The notes beneath the pieces are model-generated. The model made no database searches. It had not been told where the DNA came from and was given only the letters and a program-made list of their open reading frames with translations. From positions 10,517 through 52,673 of the forward strand of contig PLRX01000083.1 of the NCBI GenBank assembly GCA_003164095.1: a stretch of DNA of 42,157 nt, in the 5' to 3' direction. Origin of the DNA: Acidimicrobiaceae bacterium. GTDB lineage: Bacteria; Actinomycetota; Acidimicrobiia; Acidimicrobiales; RAAP-2. Of this stretch, positions 3,101 through 14,852 are shown piece after piece; the stretch's first letter is position 1, and every line of letters begins with the position of its first letter. The position numbers and the translations under genes were made by a program.

Positions 3101-4001
3101 GGGGGGATGCACCGTCGTGGTCGCCGTACAGCGTCAGGAAGAGCTCCTCGAGCGACGGCTCGCGGCTGCGCAGCTGGCGGACGCCGGATGTCGCCAGCAC
3201 CTTCAGCAACGGCTCCATCGACCCGCGCACCTGGAGGCTGGCGTGGCGACCGTTGGCCGACGCCGACAGCACCCCGTCCACCGTCGACAGGTCGGGGGCG
3301 TCGCCCTCGAAGGTCACCTCCACCGTCACGGCGGACAGGTGGCGCATCTCGGCGAGCGTCCCCATCTCGATGAGGCGGCCTTCGCTCAGGACGCCGACCC
3401 TGTCGCACAGCGCCTCGACCTCGCTCAGCAGGTGGGAGGAGAGGAACACGGTCCGACCCCGCCCCTTGGCCTCGAGCACGCAGCTGCGGAACTCGTGGAC
3501 CATCAGGGGGTCCAGCCCCGCGGTCGGCTCGTCCAGCACCAGCAGGTCCGGCCGGGACGCCAGCGCAGCGATCAGCACCACCTTCTGCCGGTTCCCCTTG
3601 GAGTAGGCCCGCACCTTCTTCGACGGGTCGAGGGCGAAGCGCTCGACGAGGTCGTCGCGGTAGGGGACGTCGACGGTTCCCTGGACCTGGCCGAGCAGGT
3701 GCAGGGCCTCGGCGCCGGTCAGGTTCGGCCACAGCGAGGGCTCGCCGCTGACGTAGGCGAGGCGACGGTGCACGGCCACGGCGTCCTGCAGGCTGTCGAG
3801 CCCGAAGAGCTGGGCCGTGCCCGATGTCGGACGGATCAGGCCGAGCAGCAGGCGGATGGTGGTCGTCTTGCCGGCCCCGTTGGGACCCAGGTAGCCGACC
3901 ACCTCGCCCGGCGAGACCTCGAGGTCGAGGTCGACCAGTGCGTCGGTGCCCCGGTAGCGCTTGGTCAGCCCGCGTGTGCGGATGACCGGGGTGTCGGTCA
4001 T
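3090..4001 (-). CDS. ABC exporter ATP-binding protein
   Basis: 303 residues, a soluble nucleotide-binding subunit. Walker A is GPNGAGKTTT near residue 40; the signature region is unusual (KVRAYSKGNRQKV, where LSGGQ is expected), as in many DrrA/CcmA-like exporters. Walker B is LLVLDEPTAGLD, followed by the switch histidine in SSHLLSEVEALCD. A C-terminal domain of about 90 residues is typical of drug-exporter ATPases. ATG at 4001 overlaps the universal stress protein stop as ATGA, so the genes are translationally coupled. The open frame further upstream only shadows the stress-protein gene. It energises the permease encoded just downstream. Confidence 0.88.
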   Translation of the reverse strand: MTDTPVIRTRGLTKRYRGTDALVDLDLEVSPGEVVGYLGPNGAGKTTTIRLLLGLIRPTSGTAQLFGLDSLQDAVAVHRRLAYVSGEPSLWPNLTGAEALHLLGQVQGTVDVPYRDDLVERFALDPSKKVRAYSKGNRQKVVLIAALASRPDLLVLDEPTAGLDPLMVHEFRSCVLEAKGRGRTVFLSSHLLSEVEALCDRVGVLSEGRLIEMGTLAEMRHLSAVTVEVTFEGDAPDLSTVDGVLSASANGRHASLQVRGSMEPLLKVLATSGVRQLRSREPSLEELFLTLYGDHDGASPHDG

Positions 4002-4462
4002 CCGCCAGGTCCGTCCCGGACGACGAGCACCGGGCAGTGGGCGCGGGCGGAGCAGTACTCGGTGACCGAGCCGAGGAGCAGTCCGCCCAGCTCGCCGTGT
4101 CCACGGCTGCCGAGGGCGAGCAGGCCGGCACCCCGTGAGGCGTCCACCAGCACCGTGGAGGGGTGCCCCTCCATCACCAGCGGGACGAACTCGACGTCCG
4201 GGTGGTGCTGACGGGCGGACTGGATCGCCTCGCGCACCAGTCGGCCAGCGTCGGCCGCCGGGTCGTAGTCCGACGGAATCATCACCGCGGCACCGTATCC
4301 GGAGGGCCACTCCCAGGTGGCGATGACCTCGACCGTGGCACCGGTCGACCCGGCCATGCCGGCGGCCCAGTCCAGGGCGGCAGCCGACGCCGGTGACCCG
4401 TCCATCCCGACGACGATACGTCCGGCCCGCTTCGGATCCTGTGCCGCGTCCTGCGTCGTCAC
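3998..4462 (-). CDS. Universal stress protein (UspA family)
   Basis: 154 residues from a GTG at 4462, chosen because GGGAGG lies 5 bases upstream; an in-frame ATG at 4525 has no such site. IVVGMDGSPASAAALDWA is the classical start of the Usp fold. The C-terminal LALGSRGHGELGGLLLGSV has the G-2x-G-9x-G(S) nucleotide-binding pattern of ATP-binding members. It heads the operon with the ABC exporter and lies 159 bases from the DevS-like kinase stop. DosR-box-like sequences and a TAGCGT -10 lie upstream (see 4553-4579), so hypoxic induction is plausible, as for several mycobacterial Usp genes. Confidence 0.9.
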   Translation of the reverse strand: MTTQDAAQDPKRAGRIVVGMDGSPASAAALDWAAGMAGSTGATVEVIATWEWPSGYGAAVMIPSDYDPAADAGRLVREAIQSARQHHPDVEFVPLVMEGHPSTVLVDASRGAGLLALGSRGHGELGGLLLGSVTEYCSARAHCPVLVVRDGPGG

Positions 4463-4523
4463 CTGTGCCTCCCGTAGGGTCCGGGCCGACGGTCCGTCCG
4501 TCGGGCCCTGCACTCCACCGGGC

Positions 4524-4529
4524 ACGCTA
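4524..4529 (-). promoter_or_regulatory. Candidate -10 (TAGCGT) for the uspA-ABC operon
   Basis: TAGCGT on the minus strand gives a predicted start near 4517 and a leader of about 55 bases that contains the GGGAGG ribosome site. Predicted only from sequence. Confidence 0.4.
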
Positions 4530-4552
4530 CGGAGCCGTGCGGGGGCCAGGTA

Positions 4553-4579
4553 GAGGATTTGGTCCCCGCCGGAGGTCCT
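4553..4579 (-). promoter_or_regulatory. Two overlapping DosR/DevR-box-like sites upstream of uspA
   Basis: On the minus strand GGGACCAAATCCTC (4566-4553) shares the GGGAC half-site and AT-rich centre of the DosR core GGGACTWWAGTCCC. Its centre is about 42.5 bases before the predicted transcription start, the usual position for a proximal DosR box. A second weaker match, AGGACCTCCGGCGG (4579-4566), adjoins it. Right half-sites are imperfect. Confidence 0.4.
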
Positions 4580-4621
4580 GACGTTCGCTCCGGCGTGGGT
4601 CCCGGGACCGGTGGCTGGTCG

Positions 4622-5821
4622 TCAGCCGTCGCCGGCGGGGACGACCGCCCTGTCGTTGAAGGTGGGGACCTGCCAGACGACGGTGGTCCCGCCGAGCGCC
4701 GGATGGGTCACCTCCAGCGTGCCGCCGAGACCCTCGGCCCGGGCCCGCATGTTGGCCAGGCCCATCCCGCCTTCGGTGGCCTGTGCGTCGACGAAGCCCT
4801 TGCCGTTGTCGGTGACCTCCATGCGGCAGAACCGACCGACCATGGAGAGGCGGATACGGGCCCGGGTGGCCTCGGAGTGCCGGCCGATGTTGGTCAGCGC
4901 CTCGCGCAAGGTGGGGAGCAGCTGGTCGGCGACCGCATCGGTGACAGCGGTGTCCACGGCGCCCTTGAACTCGACCGGCACGTCGAAGCCGACCACCGGG
5001 CGCAGCTCTTCGGCCAGGGCCAGCACGTGGGACCGGATGCCCCGGCCGTTGCCAGCCCCACCGAGTTCGAAGATGGTGGCCCGCACCTGGCGGATCGTCT
5101 CGTCGATGTCTGCGATGGCCGACTCCAGTCCGGGGCTCACGACCCGGCCCCCCGGCGTTGCCGCCAACCCCTGCAGTGACAGCCCGATGGCGAAGAGCCT
5201 CTGGATCACGCCGTCGTGGAGGTCACGGGCCAGGCGGTCCCGGTCCTCGTAGACGGCGACCTCGCCGGCACGCTGGTGGAGGCGGGCGTTCTCGACGGCG
5301 ATGCCGGCGGCGACAGCCAGCGCCTCGATGACCACCTCGTCGTCCTGCGTGAACTCGTCGGCGCCGAGCTTGTCAGTCAGGTACAGGTTCCCGTAGACGC
5401 GGTCGTGGACCTTGATCGGGGCGCCGAGGAACGACGTCATGGGTGGGTGCCCGGGTGGGAACCCGGCGCTGGCCGGGTGGTCGGCGATCACCCGGATGCG
5501 GATCGGCTTGGGGTCGGTGATGAGGACCCCGAGCACACCCTTGCCGGTGGGGAAGGGACCCTGGAGGAGGCGCATCTCGTCCTCGGGCTCGAGGCCGGAC
5601 ACCAGGAAATCGACGGTGGCGTGGCCCTCCTCGTCCAGTACGCCGAGTGCGCCGTAGCGCGCGTTGGCGAGTACCCGGGCCTCGGCGACGATGTGGTTCA
5701 GCAGGTCGCCGAGGTGCAGGTTGGACTCGAGGAGCAAGGCCGCCTCGAGCACCCGGCGCAGTTTCACGGGGTCTTCGATGGCGTCGTACGCCGCCTTGCT
5801 GTGCTCCGGGTCGTCGCCCAC
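4622..5821 (-). CDS. devS: DevS/DosS-like sensor histidine kinase with a single GAF domain
   Basis: 399 residues. A GAF domain spans about 20-185 and is followed by a HisKA_3 dimerisation/phosphoacceptor segment (DRLARDLHDGVIQRLFAIGL, His202) and an HATPase_c domain (N box ALTNIGRHS, G boxes DNGKGF and GGMGLANM). The GAF aligns with DosS GAF-A: GFPPGHPPM places His125 at the DosS haem ligand His149. NLYLTDK places Tyr147 at DosS Tyr171. ARYGALG has Gly60 where DosS has Glu87 and DosT a glycine. DosS and DosT carry two GAF domains; this protein has one. It probably senses O2/CO/NO or redox through haem (inference) and phosphorylates the divergent DevR-like regulator. GTG start with TAACCT 6 bases upstream, suggesting a leaderless transcript. 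Confidence 0.88.
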   Translation of the reverse strand: MGDDPEHSKAAYDAIEDPVKLRRVLEAALLLESNLHLGDLLNHIVAEARVLANARYGALGVLDEEGHATVDFLVSGLEPEDEMRLLQGPFPTGKGVLGVLITDPKPIRIRVIADHPASAGFPPGHPPMTSFLGAPIKVHDRVYGNLYLTDKLGADEFTQDDEVVIEALAVAAGIAVENARLHQRAGEVAVYEDRDRLARDLHDGVIQRLFAIGLSLQGLAATPGGRVVSPGLESAIADIDETIRQVRATIFELGGAGNGRGIRSHVLALAEELRPVVGFDVPVEFKGAVDTAVTDAVADQLLPTLREALTNIGRHSEATRARIRLSMVGRFCRMEVTDNGKGFVDAQATEGGMGLANMRARAEGLGGTLEVTHPALGGTTVVWQVPTFNDRAVVPAGDG

Positions 5822-5827
5822 GCGCCC

Positions 5828-5833
5828 AGGTTA
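5828..5833 (-). promoter_or_regulatory. -10 element (TAACCT) of the devS leaderless promoter
   Basis: TAACCT on the minus strand, then 6 bases, then the GTG at 5821. There is no Shine-Dalgarno sequence. Confidence 0.5.
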
Positions 5834-5887
5834 CGCCGACCCGGAGGCCCCACCACTGACGGACAGGCCTCCCACGTGCTCAAATGG

Positions 5888-6565
5888 ATGTCCATGACCA
5901 TCCGAGTCTTCCTCCTCGACGACCACGAGATCGTCCGGACGGGCCTCCGATCCCTGCTCGAGTCGACCGACGACCTCGAGGTGGTGGGAGAGGCGGGCAC
6001 CGTCGCCGAGGCACTGAGCCGGCTCCCGGCGCTCAGGCCCGACGTGGCGATCCTCGACGTGCGCCTGCCCGACGGCAGCGGTGTCGAGGTCTGTCGGGAG
6101 ATCCGGGCGCAGCTTCCGACGATCGCCTGCATCATGCTCACCTCGTACGCCGACGACGAGGCACTGTTCGCCTCGATCATGGCCGGCTCGTCCGGCTACG
6201 TCCTCAAGCAGGTCGGCGGAAACAGCCTGATCGACGATGTCCGCAAGGTGGCAGCCGGCCAGTCGCTGCTCGACCCGGCCCTGACCGATCGGGTGCTGCG
6301 CCGGCTGCGGGAGGGTCCCGAGGAGGAGCCGCTCCTCGCCACCCTCACGCACCAGGAGCGGCGGATACTCGACCTCATCGCCGAGGGCAAGACCAACCGC
6401 CAGATCGCCGAGGCGATGTTCCTGGCCGAGAAGACCGTCAAGAACTACGTCTCCAACCTGCTCACCAAGCTCGGGATGGAGCGCCGTACGCAGGCCGCGT
6501 CGTATGCCACCCGGATCCACGAGCGCTCCGAGCATGAGCGCCGGACCGACGCCACCGGCACCTGA
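5888..6565 (+). CDS. devR: DevR/DosR-like NarL-family response regulator
   Basis: 225 residues (224 or fewer if the ATG at 5894 is used). The N-terminal receiver has RVFLLDDHEIVR, phosphoacceptor Asp57 in DVAILDVRLPDGSG, and the LTSY and K-containing GYVLK motifs. The C-terminal LuxR/NarL helix-turn-helix contains FLAEKTVKNYVSNLLTKLGM and ERRTQAA, nearly identical to mycobacterial DosR including the Lys/Lys/Asn residues that contact DNA. It should therefore read a DosR-box-like site. It is divergently paired with the DevS-like kinase (66 bases between starts). No clear ribosome site is seen. Candidate target boxes lie upstream of uspA, cydA and between 7345 and 7633. Confidence 0.9.
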   Translation: MSMTIRVFLLDDHEIVRTGLRSLLESTDDLEVVGEAGTVAEALSRLPALRPDVAILDVRLPDGSGVEVCREIRAQLPTIACIMLTSYADDEALFASIMAGSSGYVLKQVGGNSLIDDVRKVAAGQSLLDPALTDRVLRRLREGPEEEPLLATLTHQERRILDLIAEGKTNRQIAEAMFLAEKTVKNYVSNLLTKLGMERRTQAASYATRIHERSEHERRTDATGT

Positions 6566-6588: not shown

Positions 6589-6987
6589 TCAATCGCCGTC
6601 GGCGGTCGGTCCGCTGTCGACCGCGCGCCTCGGAAGCTTGACACCTTTGGCGATGAGCGCCTCCTCGAGTGCGGCACGGCCGTGCTCGGGAGCCTCGAAG
6701 GCCGCCGGGTCCGCAACGATGCTCCGACGACGGGCCAGCCGGATGAGGGCAGCGTCGTACGCGAGTTGGTCGGCCACGGCCTGGAGCGCCCACCCGGGGT
6801 CCGATCGGGCGGCATGGCGGTCCATGACGTTCCGGAGTCGGATCACGTCGGCGAGCGGTCCCTGCGAGCGCGATCGCGCCTCGGGGTCCTCCTCGTAGTC
6901 GAGGACCGCCTCCAGCAGCTGCGAGTACATGACGTTCACCTGCAGGTCCCGCCCTTCGGGCTCCGGGTCGCATTGCGGGGTAGACAT
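6589..6987 (-). CDS. Hypothetical helical protein
   Basis: 132 residues from ATG 6987, preceded by GAGG at a suitable distance. No recognised family. It is predicted mostly helical and charged, with QLLEAVLDYEEDPEARSRSQ and a DRHAARSDPGWALQAVADQLAYDAALIRLAR-like central region, described here in pieces; no membrane segment or cysteine cluster. It lies 34 bases downstream of the coiled-coil gene at 7022-7345 on the same strand, so the two probably form an operon, and it is convergent with devR (23 bases between stops). Confidence 0.6.
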   Translation of the reverse strand: MSTPQCDPEPEGRDLQVNVMYSQLLEAVLDYEEDPEARSRSQGPLADVIRLRNVMDRHAARSDPGWALQAVADQLAYDAALIRLARRRSIVADPAAFEAPEHGRAALEEALIAKGVKLPRRAVDSGPTADGD

Positions 6988-7021
6988 CGACCTCACCCGT
7001 TCCGCCACCCGTACCCGAGGC

Positions 7022-7345
7022 TTACTCGCCCCGGCTCCGCCGGATGGTGGCCTCGGCCGACTCGTAGGCCTGACGGAGGTCGTCGATGAGCTTTTCGACA
7101 CCGGATCGCAGCGACCCGAGGTTGTTGCCGGCGTCCGTCGGGATCTTCAGCAGCTGGTTCTTCGCGGCCAGATAGGCGTTCTGTGCGGCGTCGGCCTTGG
7201 AGCGGACGGACTCGGACACGTCCTTCGATGCCAGGTCGGCCTGCACGAGTAGCTCGTCGATCCGACCCCGCCATTCCTCGAGCACACGCTCCAGGCGCTC
7301 GACTGTGGCGCCCTCGTTCGACGACTGGTCTTCTGTGGTGGTCAT
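7022..7345 (-). CDS. Small coiled-coil protein, unknown function
   Basis: 107 residues, entirely helical with heptad-like spacing (RLERVLEEWRGRIDELLVQA; AYLAAKNQLLKI; GVEKLIDDLRQAYESAEATI). The start at 7345 is well supported by GAGGAG about 5 bases upstream. The composition resembles phasin-like or apolipoprotein-like coiled coils, but no family can be named. First gene of a likely two-gene leftward operon. A DosR-box-like sequence lies in the 287-base gap between it and the divergent STAS gene. Confidence 0.65.
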   Translation of the reverse strand: MTTTEDQSSNEGATVERLERVLEEWRGRIDELLVQADLASKDVSESVRSKADAAQNAYLAAKNQLLKIPTDAGNNLGSLRSGVEKLIDDLRQAYESAEATIRRSRGE

Positions 7346-7496
7346 TGCTCCTCCTCAGGGGGGCGGGCCGGAGGGCCCGTACGCCCAGATTGGCGCCTGC
7401 GGGGAGGTCGCGGTAGGGCCGAACGTCCCGTCGGCCCCGAGCGCGACGACGCCGGGCGCCCGGAGCGCCCATCTGCGGGCCACCGTGGGGCGGTTA

Positions 7497-7510
7497 GGGA
7501 CTTTCGGCAC
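7497..7510. promoter_or_regulatory. DosR/DevR-box-like site between the coiled-coil and STAS genes
   Basis: GGGACTTTCGGCAC, flanked by TTA on the left, matches the left half and centre of the DosR core GGGACTWWAGTCCC; the right half (GGCAC) is degenerate. It lies about 40 bases before the start predicted from TACGAT at 7531-7536, so rightward regulation of the STAS gene is favoured. Confidence 0.45.
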
Positions 7511-7530
7511 TGGGGATCGGGATCGGCCTC

Positions 7531-7536: not shown

Positions 7537-7632
7537 CATGAGGGTGGCCGGAACGGGGCCCGCGGGGTGGGAGCACCGGGGAGCCGCGAAGCCGGTCGTC
7601 AAACGGCGCTGGACCGAGCGGAGGTGGGGTCC

Positions 7633-8052
7633 ATGGAGGTCGAACAGACCGGAGTGGTGGGGTCGACACGGGGTGGTTCGTCCGACGATCTGCCGTCCCC
7701 GCTGGCGACGGCAGGGCCCATCGGGCTCGCCGACTGGCGCGGCGACGTCGCGCTCGAGCTCTGGGTGGAGACGGACGTCGAACCGGTGCGCATCCGCATG
7801 GCCGGGCGCCTCGACGCAACCACCGCGGCCAACCTCGACGAGGTCATCCGCGAGCTGCTGGCCGACGGGACCCGTCACATCGAGCTGAGCACCGACGGCC
7901 TCCGTGGGGTCGACAGCTCGGCCGTCGGCGCCCTCGCCGACGTCGAGCGGCGCGTGCGACGGTCCGGCGGGACCCTCTTGCGGGTGGCGCCGATGAGCGG
8001 CCCCTTCCTACGGACCCATCCGTCGGCGCCTCCTCCGGGACCACGACGCTGA
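7633..8052 (+). CDS. STAS-domain protein, anti-sigma-factor antagonist type
   Basis: 139 residues from ATG 7633, with the purine-rich GAGGTGGGG upstream; in-frame starts further upstream lack a site. Residues about 45-125 form a STAS domain: PVRIRMAGRLDATTAANLDEV, then IELSTDGLRGVDSSAVGAL, where the Asp-Ser-Ser holds the serine that partner kinases phosphorylate in SpoIIAA-like proteins. An N-terminal extension of about 40 residues and a Pro/Arg-rich tail are extra. No anti-sigma kinase gene is adjacent, so the partner is unknown. It may be under DevR-like control (see 7497-7510). Confidence 0.8.
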   Translation: MEVEQTGVVGSTRGGSSDDLPSPLATAGPIGLADWRGDVALELWVETDVEPVRIRMAGRLDATTAANLDEVIRELLADGTRHIELSTDGLRGVDSSAVGALADVERRVRRSGGTLLRVAPMSGPFLRTHPSAPPPGPRR

Positions 8053-8103: not shown

Positions 8104-8110
8104 CGTGGCG

Positions 8111-8668
8111 ATGCCCGACGCCGGACCGATCGCCAGCGACGGCTACCCCGCAGGGCTGGAGTCGACCGAGCGCCTGCGGGACGGCTCAGTAGTCCTCTTC
8201 CGGCCGATCCGGATGACCGACGGTGAGCGCATGGCCGCCTTCCACGAGACGCTGTCGCCGCGCTCGGTGTACCGGCGCTTCTTTTCGGCGCACCCACGCC
8301 TGTCCGCCGGTGAGGTGGAGCGGTTCACCCACGTGGACTACGCCGAACGGATGGCCTTCGTGGTGACGGACGATGGTCGCATCGTCGCGGTCGGTCGGTA
8401 CGAGCGCCTGCAGGACACCGATGAGGCCGAGGTGGCCTTCGTCGTGACCGACGACTACCAACACCGGGGGATCGGCTCCCGGCTGCTCGTCCACCTGGCC
8501 GAGGTGGCCCGAGGGCAGGGCATCGCCCGCTTCCACGCCCAGACCCTGTCGGAGAACCGGGACATGCTCAGCGTGTTCCTGTCCTCCGGTTACCCCGTCA
8601 CGACGACCTCGGAGTCCGGCACGGTGACCGTCCGGTTCCCCATCGACTCCGTCGAGGTGTCGGACTAA
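8111..8668 (+). CDS. GNAT-family N-acetyltransferase
   Basis: 185 residues. VLFRPIRMTDGERMAAFHETLSP and SVYRRFF are typical of the GNAT domain found in Pat-type protein acetyltransferases. The acetyl-CoA-binding motif A is VAFVVTDDYQHRGIGSRLL (Q/R-x-x-G-x-G/A). No cyclic-nucleotide domain is fused, unlike mycobacterial Pat. Substrate unknown; protein lysine acetylation is possible. ATG 8111 is preferred over the GTG at 8105 because of the TAGCAT -10 seven bases upstream. Its stop codon overlaps the convergent cydC stop as CTAA. Confidence 0.85.
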   Translation: MPDAGPIASDGYPAGLESTERLRDGSVVLFRPIRMTDGERMAAFHETLSPRSVYRRFFSAHPRLSAGEVERFTHVDYAERMAFVVTDDGRIVAVGRYERLQDTDEAEVAFVVTDDYQHRGIGSRLLVHLAEVARGQGIARFHAQTLSENRDMLSVFLSSGYPVTTTSESGTVTVRFPIDSVEVSD

Positions 8669-10347
8669 CCGTCCCGACGGGAGGTGGCGACGACCCGACC
8701 GGCGTCGACGACGGCCACGTCGTCGAATCCGGCGAGCTCCTCATCGCGATGGGTGATGTAGACGACCGAGGTGCCCTCGGACGCCGTCACCACGTCGTCG
8801 ACCAGGCGCCGTGCTGTCGGGCGGTCCAGGCCCGAGGTGGGCTCGTCGAGGACGAGCACGCGTGAGCCGGCCAGCAGGGCCCGTGCCAGGGCCACCCGTT
8901 GGCGCTGCCCGCCGGACAGGCGGGCGCCCCGTTCGCCGACCGGGGTGTCCATGCCGTCGGGCAGTGAGTCGATCCACGGTCCGAGCTGGGCACGCCGGGC
9001 CGCCTCGGCGATGTCGGCGGCCGAGGCCCCGGGCCGGGCGACGGCGATGTTGCCGCCGATGGTGGTGGGAAACAGGTGGGCGTCCTGGCCGACCCAGCCG
9101 ATGCGGCTGCGCACCCTGTCCTGGGGCAGCTGGTCGAGGGCCGTGCCCCCGAGCCGGGCGGTGCCGGACTCCAGGCCCCAGAAGCGCAGGAGCACATTGA
9201 CGATGCTGCTCTTGCCCGCCCCGCTGGGACCGACCACCGCCAGGTGCCGTCCCTCGGGGACGGCCAGCGACAGGCCGTCGAGCACCCGGGGCCCGCCATC
9301 CGTGTAGCGGAGGACGGCGTCCTCGAGTGCGACGTCGGACCCGGCCGGCAGGGGTGCGGGTGCGTCCGGGTCCTGGACCGGCACCGGCAGGTCTGCCACG
9401 GCCACCAGCCGTGCCGCCGCCTCCCGGTGGTCGGCCATCCGGGCCACCGCGTCGGCAGCCGGCGCCACCACCTCGAACGCGCCCAGTGCCACCAGGGGCA
9501 GCACCGCGGCCATGAACGCCGGAAGCCGGTGGGCACCGATGGCCGAGGTCGACACGGCGAGCAGTCCGACGACCGCACCACCGGTGCAGAGCGTCACGAG
9601 GGCCGACACGGCCCCGTCGGACCATGACCGGTGCCGGGCCCGCCGCTCGAGCGCGGCGTCCGATGCCAGCGCCCGCTCCAGGTACTCCTCGTCGCGGCCC
9701 ATCGCCACCAGGTCCGGCGCGGCTGCCAGTAGCTCGACCACGTCGGCACCGAGCTCGCCGCGCAGTGCCCCTTCGCCGGTCCCGAGGCGTCGCCGCCGGA
9801 CCCAGGCCAGACCGGAGGCGGCCAGTCCGCCACCGAGCAGGAACACGGCCAGGACGAGGCCGCCGACGGGTAGCACGAAGGTCACCACCGCCACCGTGAC
9901 CGTCGCCGTCACCGCCGCCACCAGGAGAGGCGCCACACCGCGGAGGTAGACGTCCTGCAGCAGGTCGACGTCGGCCGTGGCCCGGGTCAGCAGATCGCCG
10001 TCCCTCCACCCGGCGACCCCGGCGGGCGACCGCGGGGCGATCTCGTCGTAGAGCCACAGTCGCACCCGTCCGAGCGCACCCAGGGCGGCGTCGTGGGAGA
10101 CCAGTCGCTCCGCGTAGCGGAGGGGACCGCGGGACAGCGCCAGCAACTGGACGGCGGCCATGAGGACCGTGAGTGTGTAGAGCGGTGGGCGCAGCGCCGC
10201 CTTGTCGATGAGGGCACCGGAGCAGGCGAGCAGTCCGACCGTGCACAGCGCGGCGGCCGCGCCCAGTGCGGTGCTGAACAGGAACCGGGGACCGTCCGGG
10301 GCGCCGATGCGCAGCACCCGGGCCAGCGGGCCCTGACCGCGGATCAC
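8665..10347 (-). CDS. cydC: CydC: thiol-reductant ABC exporter subunit
   Basis: 560 residues: an N-terminal membrane domain with about six hydrophobic segments (to about residue 320) and a C-terminal ATPase. Walker A is GPSGAGKSS, the signature LSGGQRQRVALARAL, Walker B VLVLDEPTSGLD and the switch histidine lies in YITHRDEE. With CydD it forms the heterodimeric exporter of cysteine/glutathione (mycothiol context in actinobacteria) needed to assemble cytochrome bd. The GTG at 10347 overlaps the cydD stop as GTGA, and the sequence VIRGQGPLARVLRI begins the family-like region. The stop overlaps the convergent GNAT gene by 3 bases, leaving no room for a terminator. Confidence 0.92.
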   Translation of the reverse strand: MIRGQGPLARVLRIGAPDGPRFLFSTALGAAAALCTVGLLACSGALIDKAALRPPLYTLTVLMAAVQLLALSRGPLRYAERLVSHDAALGALGRVRLWLYDEIAPRSPAGVAGWRDGDLLTRATADVDLLQDVYLRGVAPLLVAAVTATVTVAVVTFVLPVGGLVLAVFLLGGGLAASGLAWVRRRRLGTGEGALRGELGADVVELLAAAPDLVAMGRDEEYLERALASDAALERRARHRSWSDGAVSALVTLCTGGAVVGLLAVSTSAIGAHRLPAFMAAVLPLVALGAFEVVAPAADAVARMADHREAAARLVAVADLPVPVQDPDAPAPLPAGSDVALEDAVLRYTDGGPRVLDGLSLAVPEGRHLAVVGPSGAGKSSIVNVLLRFWGLESGTARLGGTALDQLPQDRVRSRIGWVGQDAHLFPTTIGGNIAVARPGASAADIAEAARRAQLGPWIDSLPDGMDTPVGERGARLSGGQRQRVALARALLAGSRVLVLDEPTSGLDRPTARRLVDDVVTASEGTSVVYITHRDEELAGFDDVAVVDAGRVVATSRRDG

Positions 10348-12148
10348 CCGTTCACCCCTGAAGGTGCGGTGCGGCAGTCGTCCGCCCGGTCGGTGGTGGA
10401 CGACCCGCGCCCGGGCGGGGTACCGAGGATTGTGGCGGACGGCTCGGCGACGGTCGTTCCTGCGACGGTCTGTCCGGCGAGAAGGGTGATCGTGCGGTCG
10501 ACCCGGCCGACGAGACCGCCCCGGTGGGCGGCCATCACCAAGGTCCGTCCCGCCAGCCACGGTGCCAGCGCGTCGCGCAGCTCCTCCTCGCGAGCTGCGT
10601 CGAGGTGGGCGGTGGGCTCGTCGAGTAGCACCACAGGCACGTCGCGCAGCACGGCACGCCCGATGGCGATCCGCTGGCGCTCACCTGCGCTCAGCGTGAG
10701 GCCACCTTCGCCGACCGGGGTGGCGAGGCCGCCGGGCAGGCGCGCCACCAGGCCGTCGAGCCCGGACCGGACCAGGGCCCGTGCCAGCTCGTTCGCAGTG
10801 GCGTCAGGATTGCCGAGTCGCAGGTTGTCCTCGAGGGAGCCGCGCACCAACGCCGGGCGCTGGGGGACCCAGGCCACGTGCCGGCGCCACTCGCGCATCG
10901 AGCAGGCGGACAGGGGCTCGTCACCGACCAGCACCTCACCCGACTCCGGCACCACGAAGCCCATCAGGACGTTCAGCAGCGTCGACTTGCCCGAGCCCGA
11001 CTCACCCACCACCGCAACGTGCTCCCCTGGGCGGAGTGACAGGTCCACCCCGTCGAGGACCGGCTGGGCCCGTCCGGTATGGCGCACCGTGACGCCGGCC
11101 AGGCGGACCGGCTGCAGCGACAGGTCGGGCAGCGGACGCGCCCCAGCCCAGTCGGTCGGCGGCGACGCGGCATCGGCGGCGTCGAGCACATCGAGGATGC
11201 GGGCAGCCGCGGCCCGGCCCTCTGCGCTGGAGTGGAACTCGGCACCGGCCCGGCGAAGCGGTAGGTACACCTCGGGAGCCAGGACGAGGATGGCCAGGGC
11301 CGTGCCCAGGGGGAGAGTGCCGTGCAGGAGGCGCAGGCCGAGGAAGAGCGCCACCAGGGCGGTGCCGACCGAGGCCATGGTCTCGAGCGCCAGCGACGAC
11401 AGGAACGCCACCTTCAGGGTGGACATGGTCTCGTCGTGGAGTTCCCGGTTGGCACGCTCGAGGGTGTGGCGGCCGTCCCTCGTCCGACCGAAGGCGCGCA
11501 GGGTGGGCAGGCCCTGGAGCAGGTCGTAGAAGGTGGCGGCCAACCCGGAGAGCCTGGCCCACTGGCGGTCGGCGTTCCGGGTGGCCTCGAGGCCGAGGAG
11601 GATCATGAACAGGGGGATGACCGCCACGGTCACCGCCAGGATGACCGCGCTGAACCAGTCGCGGACGACGATGCAGGCCAGCAGGACGACCGGTGTCAGG
11701 GCCGACAGGACCAGGGTCGGCAGGTAGCGGGCGAAGTAGCCGTCGAGGGCGTCCACGCCCTGGGTGGCTGAGGCCGCCAGCTCGCCGGTCCGTTCGCCCG
11801 CCAGCCACGATGGCCCGAGCGCCACGGCCCGGGTCAGCAGCTGGCGCCTCAGGGTCGACGTGACCGAGGCGGAGGTGCGGTGGGCGGCCACCTCGCCCGC
11901 CCACGCTGCAACGGCCCGCAGGCCGAAGGCACCCGCCAGTGCGACCAGGGCGGGGACGGTGTGATGCAGTCCGTCATGGTCGATCAGGACCTCCTGGACG
12001 ATCGCCCCGATCAGGGCGGCCTGGGCCACCAGCGCCGCGGTCCCGACCAGGCCGACCGCCACGGCACCAGCCAGGTAGTGACGGGTGGCCCTGGCCCGAT
12101 CGAGGAGACGGGGGTCGACGGGTCGACGGTCGTCGGGTCCGGTGTCGC

Positions 12149-12152
<4 letters not shown>
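10344..12152 (-). CDS. cydD: CydD: thiol-reductant ABC exporter subunit, probable CTG start
   Basis: Membrane domain followed by an ATPase with Walker A GESGSGKST, signature LSAGERQRIAIG and Walker B VVLLDEPTAHLD; it heterodimerises with CydC. The first standard start in frame is GTG 12062. However, the open frame extends upstream and encodes PVDPRLLDRARATRHYLAG, which matches the conserved CydD N-terminus. Between that sequence and the cydB stop the only plausible start is CTG at 12152, which overlaps the cydB TGA as CTGA, mirroring the GTGA overlap with cydC. From CTG the protein is 602 residues. The start is inferred; GTG 12062 (572 residues) is the conservative alternative. Confidence 0.9.
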
Positions 12153-13291
<1,139 letters not shown>

Positions 13292-13310: not shown

Positions 13311-14783
13311 TCAGTAGATGAGGGCCGGGGCCCGGTCGTCGTGGTGCTCGGAGTCGCCGTCGAAGTCGGCGGTCACGTCGTCAGCGGATCCGTCGCCGCC
13401 GGTCGGCTTCGGCTGGCCGTGCTCGTCCACGCTGTCGGGATCGAGCTTGGCGTAGCGGGCCATCAGGCCGAAGTCGATGATGGCCAGGATGGAGTAGATG
13501 GCGGTGAAGCCGACCAGCGTGGTGACCACGTAGCCCGTGCCGATGGGGGACACGCCCTTCGCCGTCTTGAGCAGCCCGTACACGACCCAGGGCTGGCGTC
13601 CCATCTCGGTGAAGATCCACCCGGTCGCATTGGCGACGAAGGGGAGCAGCAGCGCCGGGACCGCCAGTCTCAGGAACCACTTCGACGTGTCCAGCTTCCG
13701 TCGGTAGAGCAGGACCATGCCCCAGGCCAGGCCAAGGAACATCAGGATGCCGCAGCCCACCATGATCCGGAAGGTCCAGTAGGTCACCCACAGCACGGGC
13801 ACGTAGCTGCCCTTGCCGTACTTGGCGGTCTCGCTGGCCTGGATCTGGTTGATGCCCTGGACGGAGCCGTCCCAGCTGTTGTCCGACAGCACGGACAGTG
13901 CGTGGGGGATCCGGATCTGGAAGACGGGATCACCCGACAGGTTGCCGATCGTCAGGAGCGAGAAGCTCGCTCCGTTCTGCGTGTTGTACACCGCCTCCGC
14001 TGAAGCCATCTTCATGGGTTGCTGCTTCTCCATGAGGCGGGCCTGGTTGTCGCCGAAGAACATGGTGGCGACGACGGCCACGACGCCCACGATCAGGGCC
14101 AGCTTGGCCGAGGCCGAGAACACGGGGTGCGGGCCCTCGCCGGCCTTCTGGGTCCGGCGCAGGTGCCAGGCGCTGATGCCCAGCATCAGCATCGCCGCCG
14201 TCACCAGGGCGGCAGTCAACACGTGGAGGAAGGAGCTGATGAGCGTGCTGTTGGTCATGACCGCCCAGAAGTTGGTCATGATCGCCCGGTTGCCCTGGAT
14301 CTTGTAGCCGACGGGATGCTGCATCCAGGCATTGGCCGCGAGGATGAAGTAGGCGGACAGCATCGTGCCGATGCTGACCAGCCAGATGGAGGCCAGGTGC
14401 ACCCGGGCCGAGACCCGACCCTTGCCGAAGATCCAGATGCCGAGGAACGTCGACTCGAGGAAGAACGCCAGCAGGGCTTCGACGGCCAGCGGGGCACCGA
14501 AGACGCTGCCCACGTAGCGGGAGTACACCGACCAGTTCATGCCGAACTGGAACTCCTGGACGATGCCCGTGACGACGCCGATGGCGAAGTTGATGAGGAA
14601 CAGGCGACGCCAGAAGATCGTCATCTGCTCCCACTTCGCCTGTTTGGCGGCATCACCTCGCGACCGGTACGCGGCCGTCTGCATGATGGCCAGCAGCAGG
14701 GCGAGGCCGATGGTGAGAGGGACGAAGATGAAGTGGAAGACGGTAGTGATACCGAACTGCCAGCGGGAGAGTAGAAGTGTCAT
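13311..14783 (-). CDS. cydA: CydA: cytochrome bd oxidase subunit I
   Basis: 490 residues with about nine membrane segments. His in RWQFGITTVFHFIFVPLTIG (residue 18) corresponds to the haem ligand His19 of E. coli CydA. PVGYKIQGNRA and the conserved GWIFTEMGRQPWVVYGLLKT block near residue 390 are typical. The quinol-binding Q loop is of the short type. The terminal 40 residues are hydrophilic. It catalyses quinol oxidation with O2 reduction at high affinity. ATG 14783 is preferred over the adjoining GTG 14786. No ribosome site is visible, and a strong DosR-box-like sequence lies 44.5 bases upstream, suggesting a leaderless or nearly leaderless DevR-dependent transcript. Confidence 0.96.
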   Translation of the reverse strand: MTLLLSRWQFGITTVFHFIFVPLTIGLALLLAIMQTAAYRSRGDAAKQAKWEQMTIFWRRLFLINFAIGVVTGIVQEFQFGMNWSVYSRYVGSVFGAPLAVEALLAFFLESTFLGIWIFGKGRVSARVHLASIWLVSIGTMLSAYFILAANAWMQHPVGYKIQGNRAIMTNFWAVMTNSTLISSFLHVLTAALVTAAMLMLGISAWHLRRTQKAGEGPHPVFSASAKLALIVGVVAVVATMFFGDNQARLMEKQQPMKMASAEAVYNTQNGASFSLLTIGNLSGDPVFQIRIPHALSVLSDNSWDGSVQGINQIQASETAKYGKGSYVPVLWVTYWTFRIMVGCGILMFLGLAWGMVLLYRRKLDTSKWFLRLAVPALLLPFVANATGWIFTEMGRQPWVVYGLLKTAKGVSPIGTGYVVTTLVGFTAIYSILAIIDFGLMARYAKLDPDSVDEHGQPKPTGGDGSADDVTADFDGDSEHHDDRAPALIY

Positions 14784-14820
14784 CACCGATGATGAAACCA
14801 GCGAATGAAATGGTCACCTA

Positions 14821-14834
14821 GGGCCGAAGGTCCC
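14821..14834 (-). promoter_or_regulatory. DosR/DevR-box-like site upstream of cydA
   Basis: Minus-strand GGGACCTTCGGCCC, with TC on its left and TAGG on its right, an imperfect palindrome with both half-sites of the DosR core (GGGAC and G-CCC). It is the best match in the window. The centre is 44.5 bases before the ATG at 14783 and 41.5 before the GTG at 14786, matching a box that overlaps the -35 position if the transcript is leaderless. Downstream a weak TTTCAT (14797-14792) could be the -10. Confidence 0.55.
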
Positions 14835-14836
14835 GA

Positions 14837-14852
14837 TGTGATCAGGCGCACG
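14837..14852 (-). promoter_or_regulatory. Possible CRP- or Rex-type site upstream of the cydA DosR-like box
   Basis: CGTGCGCCTGATCACA on the minus strand matches the shared TGTGA-N6-TCACA pattern at 8 of 10 fixed positions (right half perfect). The centre is about 60 bases before the cydA start. Both CRP and Rex are known regulators of actinobacterial cyd operons; the sequence cannot separate them. Confidence 0.3.

Follow-up and report, generated by a model that had tools for sequence, protein, structure and literature searches.

A single-GAF DosS-type sensor kinase and its DosR-type regulator in an Acidimicrobiia genome, with a candidate link to cytochrome bd

In mycobacteria, the haem-based sensor kinase DosS (also called DevS) and its response regulator DosR are encoded in one operon, and a second kinase, DosT, is unlinked from dosRS. 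DosS is on in its deoxy-ferrous state and off when O2 is bound, it requires Tyr171 for ligand discrimination, and the role of its second GAF domain, GAF-B, was described as unexplained in a 2013 review (PMC4082495). DosS/DosR-like pairs are also described outside mycobacteria, among them OsdK-OsdR of Streptomyces coelicolor (PMC5069765) and the DevS/DevR-like PolS-PolR of Microlunatus phosphovorus, which has two GAF domains and whose studied targets are phosphate genes (PMC6754071). Here, we describe a kinase-regulator pair from an Acidimicrobiaceae bacterium (assembly GCA_003164095.1, contig PLRX01000083.1, positions 10,517 to 52,673), within a stretch of 42,157 nucleotides that was analysed as a whole and is referred to as the window. 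We put at roughly three in four the probability that this pair is a one-GAF version of the DosS/DosR lineage of haem-based, gas-sensing two-component systems, through which low O2 would act via DosR on cytochrome bd and stress genes.

The pair resembles DosS and DosT in the haem-GAF residues His, Tyr and Phe98, in the HisKA_3 and HATPase_c domains, in its DosR-type partner and in that its genome encodes a further kinase at an unlinked position. It differs from them in having one GAF domain, as the insert of 143-174 residues found between the GAF and His domains of two-GAF relatives is absent. Where DosS has the Glu87-His89 pair, the kinase has Gly and Leu, and it is divergent from the regulator, unlike the single operon of mycobacterial DosRS. 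With OsdK-OsdR it shares a DosR-type regulator, the same box spacing (AGGGCCGATCGGCCCT) and nearby universal stress protein (USP) genes (PMC5069765), but the Streptomyces kinases of highest GAF identity that we read have two GAF domains. The main text of the OsdK-OsdR paper does not contain the term 'cyd'. In the open-licence literature searched (including PMC5069765, PMC4082495, PMC6754071, PMC7719681, PMC11537054, PMC13287260 and PMC10034137), neither a DosS-type haem kinase with one GAF domain nor a connection between DosR and cydA in Acidimicrobiia was found.

The pair occupies positions 4622-6565, where the sequence-only reading had placed it. That reading described a 399-residue kinase with a single GAF domain, and both the Pfam domains (Table 1) and the reading frame bear this out; from stop to stop the frame is open for only 402 codons, so that no second GAF domain was overlooked upstream. 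The top sequence match of residues 40-185 in the PDB is DosT GAF-A (2vzw, E = 1.1e-42), and four DosS GAF-A sequences match as well (E = 1.8e-42 to 2.2e-41). His125, Tyr147 and Gly60 had been proposed as the equivalents of DosS His149, Tyr171 and Glu87, which both the letters and the alignment columns confirm. DosT likewise carries Gly at the Glu87 site, and at DosS position 89 the alignment places Leu in the window kinase and Arg in DosT. With Gly at 87 and Leu at 89, the Tyr171-Glu87-His89 network is not kept in its DosS form.

An AlphaFold2 model of the kinase, made with 82 sequences, has a predicted local distance difference test score (pLDDT) of 88.1. When its GAF domain is compared with the PDB, nine DosS/DosT GAF-A entries are retrieved (Z 24.6-25.3, root-mean-square deviation (rmsd) 1.4-2.3, 50-52% identity), and the next-best GAF domain follows at Z 19.3. 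The best DosS GAF-A fit (VIA-align) has a Z of 25.3 and an rmsd of 1.4 across 146 residues at 51% identity; lower-ranked matches (other GAF domains, PDE and DesK) were read as shared fold only. For the regulator, the top PDB match is DevR/DosR (3c3w, E = 7.5e-73, 248 bits), followed by VraR at 155.5 bits. The regulator had been said to keep the DNA-contact segment of DosR, and this holds: over FLAEKTVKNYVS..RRTQAA the recognition-helix stretch of DosR recurs with two differences only (lower-case in YVSnLLtKLG). The listed open reading frame 5216-6565 is the regulator's frame plus an upstream extension that overlaps the kinase gene. Overall, sequence and fold agree that this is a DosS/DosT-type haem-GAF kinase with one GAF domain, outside mycobacteria and beside a DosR-type regulator.

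We searched the kinase against 198 genomes of the class Acidimicrobiia (E = 1e-50 or better, pocket residues not being a search criterion) and found matches in 73 of them. All 75 class kinases besides the window's were read. At 35-52% identity to it, every one keeps the pocket His, the Tyr, Phe98 and the Gly at the Glu87 site (75/75 for each), so that alignment with these homologues leaves the His and Tyr columns unbroken, and none has an insert between the GAF and His domains. The frames of 19 of the 75 extend at least 60 residues before the GAF domain, and none of these matches a GAF profile there (best E = 1.4); one kinase, in L031, begins at a contig end. The window kinase is therefore no one-off, and among cultivated bacteria Desertimonas flava (L096) also carries the one-GAF form. 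In 66 of the 75, the fetched flank contains a regulator whose identity to that of the window is 45% or more, and 52 of those are divergent. In an alignment of 82 kinases, some of which had been found via a motif that includes the proximal His, His125, Tyr147, His202 and Asp203 are all invariant (82/82).

The window's own genome has five GAF_2 matches, and by score only the two kinases among them belong to this family (215 and 197 bits, versus 17 or less). Two of the three other matches can be aligned and are without the pocket His or Tyr, and the third aligns poorly. The second family member (L002) is a one-GAF kinase, 52% identical to the first and without an adjoining regulator. Downstream of it are genes for an amino-acid permease and for an arginine deiminase (PF02274, E = 3.8e-118; L002/L068, G000:C34). 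Arginine deiminase was considered as a conserved anaerobic link of this second kinase and rejected, as none was present in the related loci scanned and only a weak 8.8-bit site precedes the operon.

One-GAF kinases also occur beyond the class. Scanning GTDB representatives with a motif yielded 80 loci, which were selected for the His motif and are thus uninformative on its conservation, and whose counts are best matches rather than frequencies. Together with 30 kinases from the class and the own genome, 108 were readable, of which 89 have one GAF domain and 19 carry an insert of 149-174 residues. The one-GAF rows come from Acidimicrobiia, Chloroflexota, Bacillota, Nitriliruptorales, Glycomyces, Cellulosimicrobium and Tsukamurella, and the two-GAF rows from Streptomyces, Kitasatospora, Rhodococcus, Gordonia, Actinomadura and Nocardioides. 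A search of the phylum (E = 1e-35) found kinase matches in 144 of 396 genomes. Among 51 distinct kinases hand-picked from this search, 31 have one GAF domain and 20 have two (53 rows including two repeats; L277 gave no kinase, and 2 of the 51 equal earlier rows).

Trees were built from the joined GAF and kinase pieces, with the intervening stretch omitted. The first tree (104 rows, five truncated rows having been dropped) has five architecture changes and does not reject a single two-GAF clade (approximately unbiased test, p-AU 0.085). The scenario initially drawn from it, in which the family began with one GAF domain and Actinomycetes acquired GAF-B late, was withdrawn after 51 more kinases and the related GAF-B domains had been taken into account. 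In the enlarged tree (155 rows), ten changes are seen, at least seven of which are forced by starred, well-supported branches, and two-GAF rows stand on both sides of the midpoint root as well as in families f57, f59, f60, f63, f76 and f87. A GAF-B profile made from 33 kinases gives 73-158 bits with the GAF-B domains of the scattered kinases L297, L298, L302, L305 and L306, versus 15-48 bits with the GAF-A domains tested, which indicates that most GAF-B domains share an origin. We conclude that GAF-B is mostly one domain lineage that has been repeatedly lost, gained or transferred, and that it is dispensable in the haem-GAF/DosR family.

The interleaving of the two forms and the relatedness of the GAF-B domains make both ancient loss and late gain possible. 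We rate at slightly below even the prospect that the class's one-GAF form is a streamlined descendant of a two-GAF kinase, GAF-B having disappeared ahead of the origin of the class and again in other lineages. The two-GAF kinases on both sides of the midpoint root, the forced changes and the common origin of most GAF-B domains point this way. However, all Chloroflexota and Bacillota rows, the 75 kinases of the class and the Nitriliruptorales row have one GAF domain, the tree is unrooted with many weak branches, and transfer of two-GAF genes would produce the same picture. In addition, the second GAF domain of L301 (G438) scores 42 bits with the GAF-B profile, no better than GAF-A, and was possibly acquired separately. 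The word 'streamlined', applied by the sequence-only reading to the window kinase, may thus be right as loss of GAF-B for the class as a whole, but it does not set this kinase apart from the other 75. With pocket and DosR partner both retained, naturally occurring one-GAF relatives offer a control for the effect of GAF-B on ligand discrimination.

New here are candidate DosR-box-like sites beyond dosR and just upstream of cydABDC. A matrix made from other genomes (including the close dosRS relatives L084, L110 and L121) ranks positions 14818-14837, then 7413-7432, as the top sites of the window, and the two are the only ones of 15 bits or more, compared with 0.0 expected from five shuffles. 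The 7413 site lies ~850 bp beyond dosR, and its 16-base core GGGACGTTCGGCCCTA recurs unchanged in L084, L110 and L121, even though the excised flanking DNA barely aligns; at the level of sequence, it is a conserved footprint. A tight box, GGGACNTTNGKCCC, has 11 sites in the own genome and 0 when read backwards, two of them in the window (7416-7429 and 14821-14834). As this pattern was chosen on the own genome, the fair test lies in other genomes. In 74 class kinase loci it occurs 13 times per 349,550 bases (expected 0.1, backwards 0) and in 58 named loci 11 times per 379,912 bases (expected 0.1, backwards 0), the two sets sharing a few genomes. Among genomes of at least 1.5 Mb, with the own and small genomes left out and kinship uncorrected, box density is 0.80 per Mb in 108 DosR-positive versus 0.27 in 67 DosR-negative genomes (backwards controls 0.26 and 0.21).

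When one mismatch is allowed, 31 places in the own genome fit the tight pattern versus 13 backwards. Two of these are in the window, and the surroundings of 24 others (22 stretches) were inspected; several lie inside long frames (e.g., L064, L066, L067, L072, L077 and L079) and are probably due to chance. One box lies ~870 bp before an Hsp20 gene (L063) and another ~50 bp before a small frame with a cytochrome b gene behind it (L075). L222, L225 and L226 contain no site that reaches 9 bits. Two earlier patterns were discarded, the initial 15-base boxes because their spacing was wrong against the OsdR consensus, and the loose GGGMCN4GKCCC, replaced by the tighter pattern, because it did no better than chance. 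From their positions, DosR-type boxes appear to precede putative target genes of the regulator.

The clearest of these candidate targets is the cydABDC set, which is complete in the window. cydA is rare in the class: at E = 1e-80 it is found in 19 of the 198 genomes, and a DosR relative is present in 17 of these. A box within 300 bp upstream of cydA, at a threshold equal to the 99% shuffle score (7.4 bits), is present in 9 of the 17 DosR-positive genomes (the own included) versus 0 of 2 DosR-negative ones, and seven of the eight other boxes are centred 71-90 bp before the match. As the matrix already contained the site of G108 (in L029), the count without the own genome and G108 is 7 of 15. 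In G063, kinase, regulator and cydA are neighbours, and a stretch of 4 kb contains these three genes together with a box in G108. Mycobacterial cytochrome bd is described in a 2020 review as being under SenX3/RegX3 and CRP control (PMC7719681); a DosR box before cydABDC would put it under a Dos system in Acidimicrobiia. This shorter, one-GAF version of the mycobacterial switch is common among the relatives of the bacterium, and its target seems to be an enzyme that uses oxygen with high affinity.

A number of results weigh against the reading that low O2 acts through this pair on cytochrome bd. The tight pattern was itself sharpened on the own genome after the OsdR consensus, and at least 2 of its 11 sites there lie inside long frames (L064, L066). 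The loose pattern is not enriched in the window (38 versus 36.1 expected, one mismatch allowed) or in the own genome (117 versus 170 in the backwards control). The 66-base intergenic stretch between kinase and regulator holds no site of 7 bits or more. Among the DosR-positive cydA genomes, 8 of 17 are without a box over threshold. If the bar is raised to the 95% score (11.9 bits) of random stretches from the dosRS loci, themselves rich in boxes, 7 of 17 still qualify; of the two DosR-negative genomes, one offered just 77 upstream bases. No cydA was found in L084 or L121, two of the window's three nearest dosRS relatives, and cyd is thus not an obligatory target. The second kinase means that the regulator may have two inputs. 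Lastly, the residue at DosS His89 is Leu in the window kinase, and mostly Leu, Ile or Val in the class, so that the chemistry of the pocket differs in part from that of DosS.

Based on the domain order, the pocket residues and the pairing, we propose that His125 of the single GAF domain would hold the haem iron and that Tyr147 would form a hydrogen bond to the ligand. The O2-bound kinase would be off or act as a phosphatase; as O2 falls, the haem would become ferrous and unliganded (or CO- or NO-bound) and the kinase would turn on. The model has a single helix, residues 159-220, that runs from the end of the GAF domain into the His202 helix, and the signal could pass directly along it. His202 would then be phosphorylated and hand its phosphate to Asp57 of the regulator. 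Given the conservation and position of the boxes, the phosphorylated regulator would bind GGGACnTTnGKCCC boxes and induce local genes, foremost cydABDC and also the STAS/107-residue gene pair, and perhaps stress genes such as the Hsp20 gene elsewhere in the genome.

In one-GAF kinases, the length between the GAF and His domains is nearly fixed. The offset is 0 in 74 of 75 class kinases and +3 in one, and among one-GAF kinases of the wider sets the values are otherwise +3, +4, +7 and, twice, -2. As +7 equals one heptad and +3 or +4 about half a heptad, this fits a signal running along a coiled coil, and the lengths hint that such a route may lead from the GAF domain to the His domain. The near-fixed spacing makes this a testable mechanical model of signalling.

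The sequence-only reading had taken Gly60 as a possible sign of DosT-like behaviour, that is, O2 sensing. Among the 108 readable kinases (a set that partly overlaps the 75 of the class), 107 have Gly at the Glu87 site, 88 of the 89 with one GAF domain and all 19 with two, and so do 50 of 51 further kinases of the phylum. Gly is thus the family default in both architectures, Glu87 of DosS is the oddity, and Gly60 cannot serve as a DosT marker; O2 sensing still is the best guess, now from the cyd linkage. DosS E87G forms a stable oxy complex (PMC4082495), so that O2 sensing fits Gly60, but it fits nearly the whole family equally. The lone Glu among the 51 further kinases, in L303 (G335), comes with His at position 89 as in DosS, and the two residues may have arisen together.

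It is also conceivable, if unlikely, that the same haem pocket reads redox state or NO/CO, in that O2 would quickly oxidise the haem and the ferric form be off, or that NO or CO would be the true activator. Cytochrome bd also helps against NO, which would suit such a signal. DosS binds O2, CO and NO, and a redox-sensor view of it has been published; however, the redox argument rests on Glu87, and Gly goes with a stable oxy complex (DosT; DosS E87G and E87A; PMC4082495). In all 75 class kinases, position 87 is Gly. That the GAF domain has given up haem and senses another small molecule, its pocket residues being inherited structure, is very improbable, for although GAF domains bind many ligands, the invariance of the proximal His, the distal Tyr and Phe98 at 35-52% identity makes a functionless pocket unlikely, and two other GAF domains of the own genome are without the pocket residues.

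The phylum search also returned a group of one-GAF kinases in genus g138 (L267-L274) that keep the proximal His, whereas the distal Tyr is replaced by Phe in all 8 read. Their nearby regulator is only 42-45% like the window's. DosS no longer discriminates between ligands once this Tyr is changed to Phe (PMC4082495), and g138 may be a natural non-discriminating or O2-blind branch.

Taking these observations together, we see even odds for a broader proposal. In it, GAF-B would be a removable tuning module, lost or gained at least seven times while the haem pocket and the DosR partner were kept, and the one-GAF haem domain would drive the His domain directly via a phase-locked helix. A main output in Acidimicrobiia would be cytochrome bd, not dormancy, and the g138 lineage, with eight kinases, even carries a natural Tyr-to-Phe change at the ligand-discrimination residue of DosS.

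Table 1. Features of the window around the kinase-regulator pair and the cyd genes, in order of position
Feature	Position	Strand	Basis or remark
Universal stress protein gene, downstream of kinase, same strand	3998..4525	-	PF00582 E 4.5e-29
Single-GAF haem-type sensor histidine kinase	4622..5821	-	399 residues, GTG start
HATPase_c domain, residues 298-386	4664..4930	-	Pfam; 33-34% identity to DosS ATP-binding domain structures
HisKA_3 dimerisation/phosphoacceptor domain, residues 194-253, His202 in RDLHDGVIQ	5063..5242	-	Pfam
GAF domain, residues 37-177	5291..5713	-	Pfam GAF_2 E 2e-16
Tyr147 codon, aligned with DosS distal Tyr171	5381..5383	-	PDB sequence alignment
His125 codon, aligned with DosS proximal haem ligand His149	5447..5449	-	PDB sequence alignment
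Gly60 codon, at DosS Glu87 site	5642..5644	-	PDB sequence alignment
DosR/DevR-type response regulator, 225 residues, receiver (Asp57) and LuxR-type helix-turn-helix, divergent to kinase	5888..6565	+	Pfam, PDB match
170-residue frame, between 107-residue gene and dosR	6589..7101	-	no Pfam or NCBIfam match
107-residue protein beside conserved box	7022..7345	-	related frames with dosRS in L084, L110, L121
DosR-box-like site GACGGGACGTTCGGCCCTAC, between 107-residue gene and STAS gene	7413..7432	-	22.5 bits
Weaker second DosR-box-like site, same intergenic stretch	7494..7513	+	14.5 bits; partly kept in L084, L110, L121
STAS-domain protein frame, divergent from 107-residue gene	7567..8052	+	PF13466 E 2.3e-09
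cydC frame, true start probably further in	8665..10560	-	TIGR02868 464.3 bits, cut-off 329
cydD	10344..12062	-	TIGR02857 592.5 bits, cut-off 435
cydB	12149..13291	-	TIGR00203 E 6.2e-103
cydA, cytochrome bd oxidase subunit I	13311..14786	-	part of the complete cydABDC set
DosR-box-like site ATCGGGACCTTCGGCCCTAG, centred 41 bp upstream of cydA frame	14818..14837	-	24.3 bits

The surroundings of the pair are partly shared with other genomes. The USP gene likewise follows the kinase in L086, L110 and L121, and relatives of the 107-residue, 170-residue and STAS genes accompany dosR and the kinase in L084, L110 and L121. The 107-residue protein and the 170-residue frame (6589-7345, minus strand) are kept between dosR and the conserved DosR-box-like site in four genomes. 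In L086, another Acidimicrobiales genome, a USP gene and an Hsp20-like gene (the latter judged by eye), at 4227-4721 and 6706-7131, adjoin the dosRS pair, an arrangement that resembles the classical Dos regulon. Matches to plasmid records number 63, at 60-90% identity. Between the STAS gene and cydC, at 8105-8668 on the plus strand, lies a GNAT acetyltransferase gene whose product resembles part of mycobacterial Pat (NF058543, E = 1.8e-30, below cut-off).

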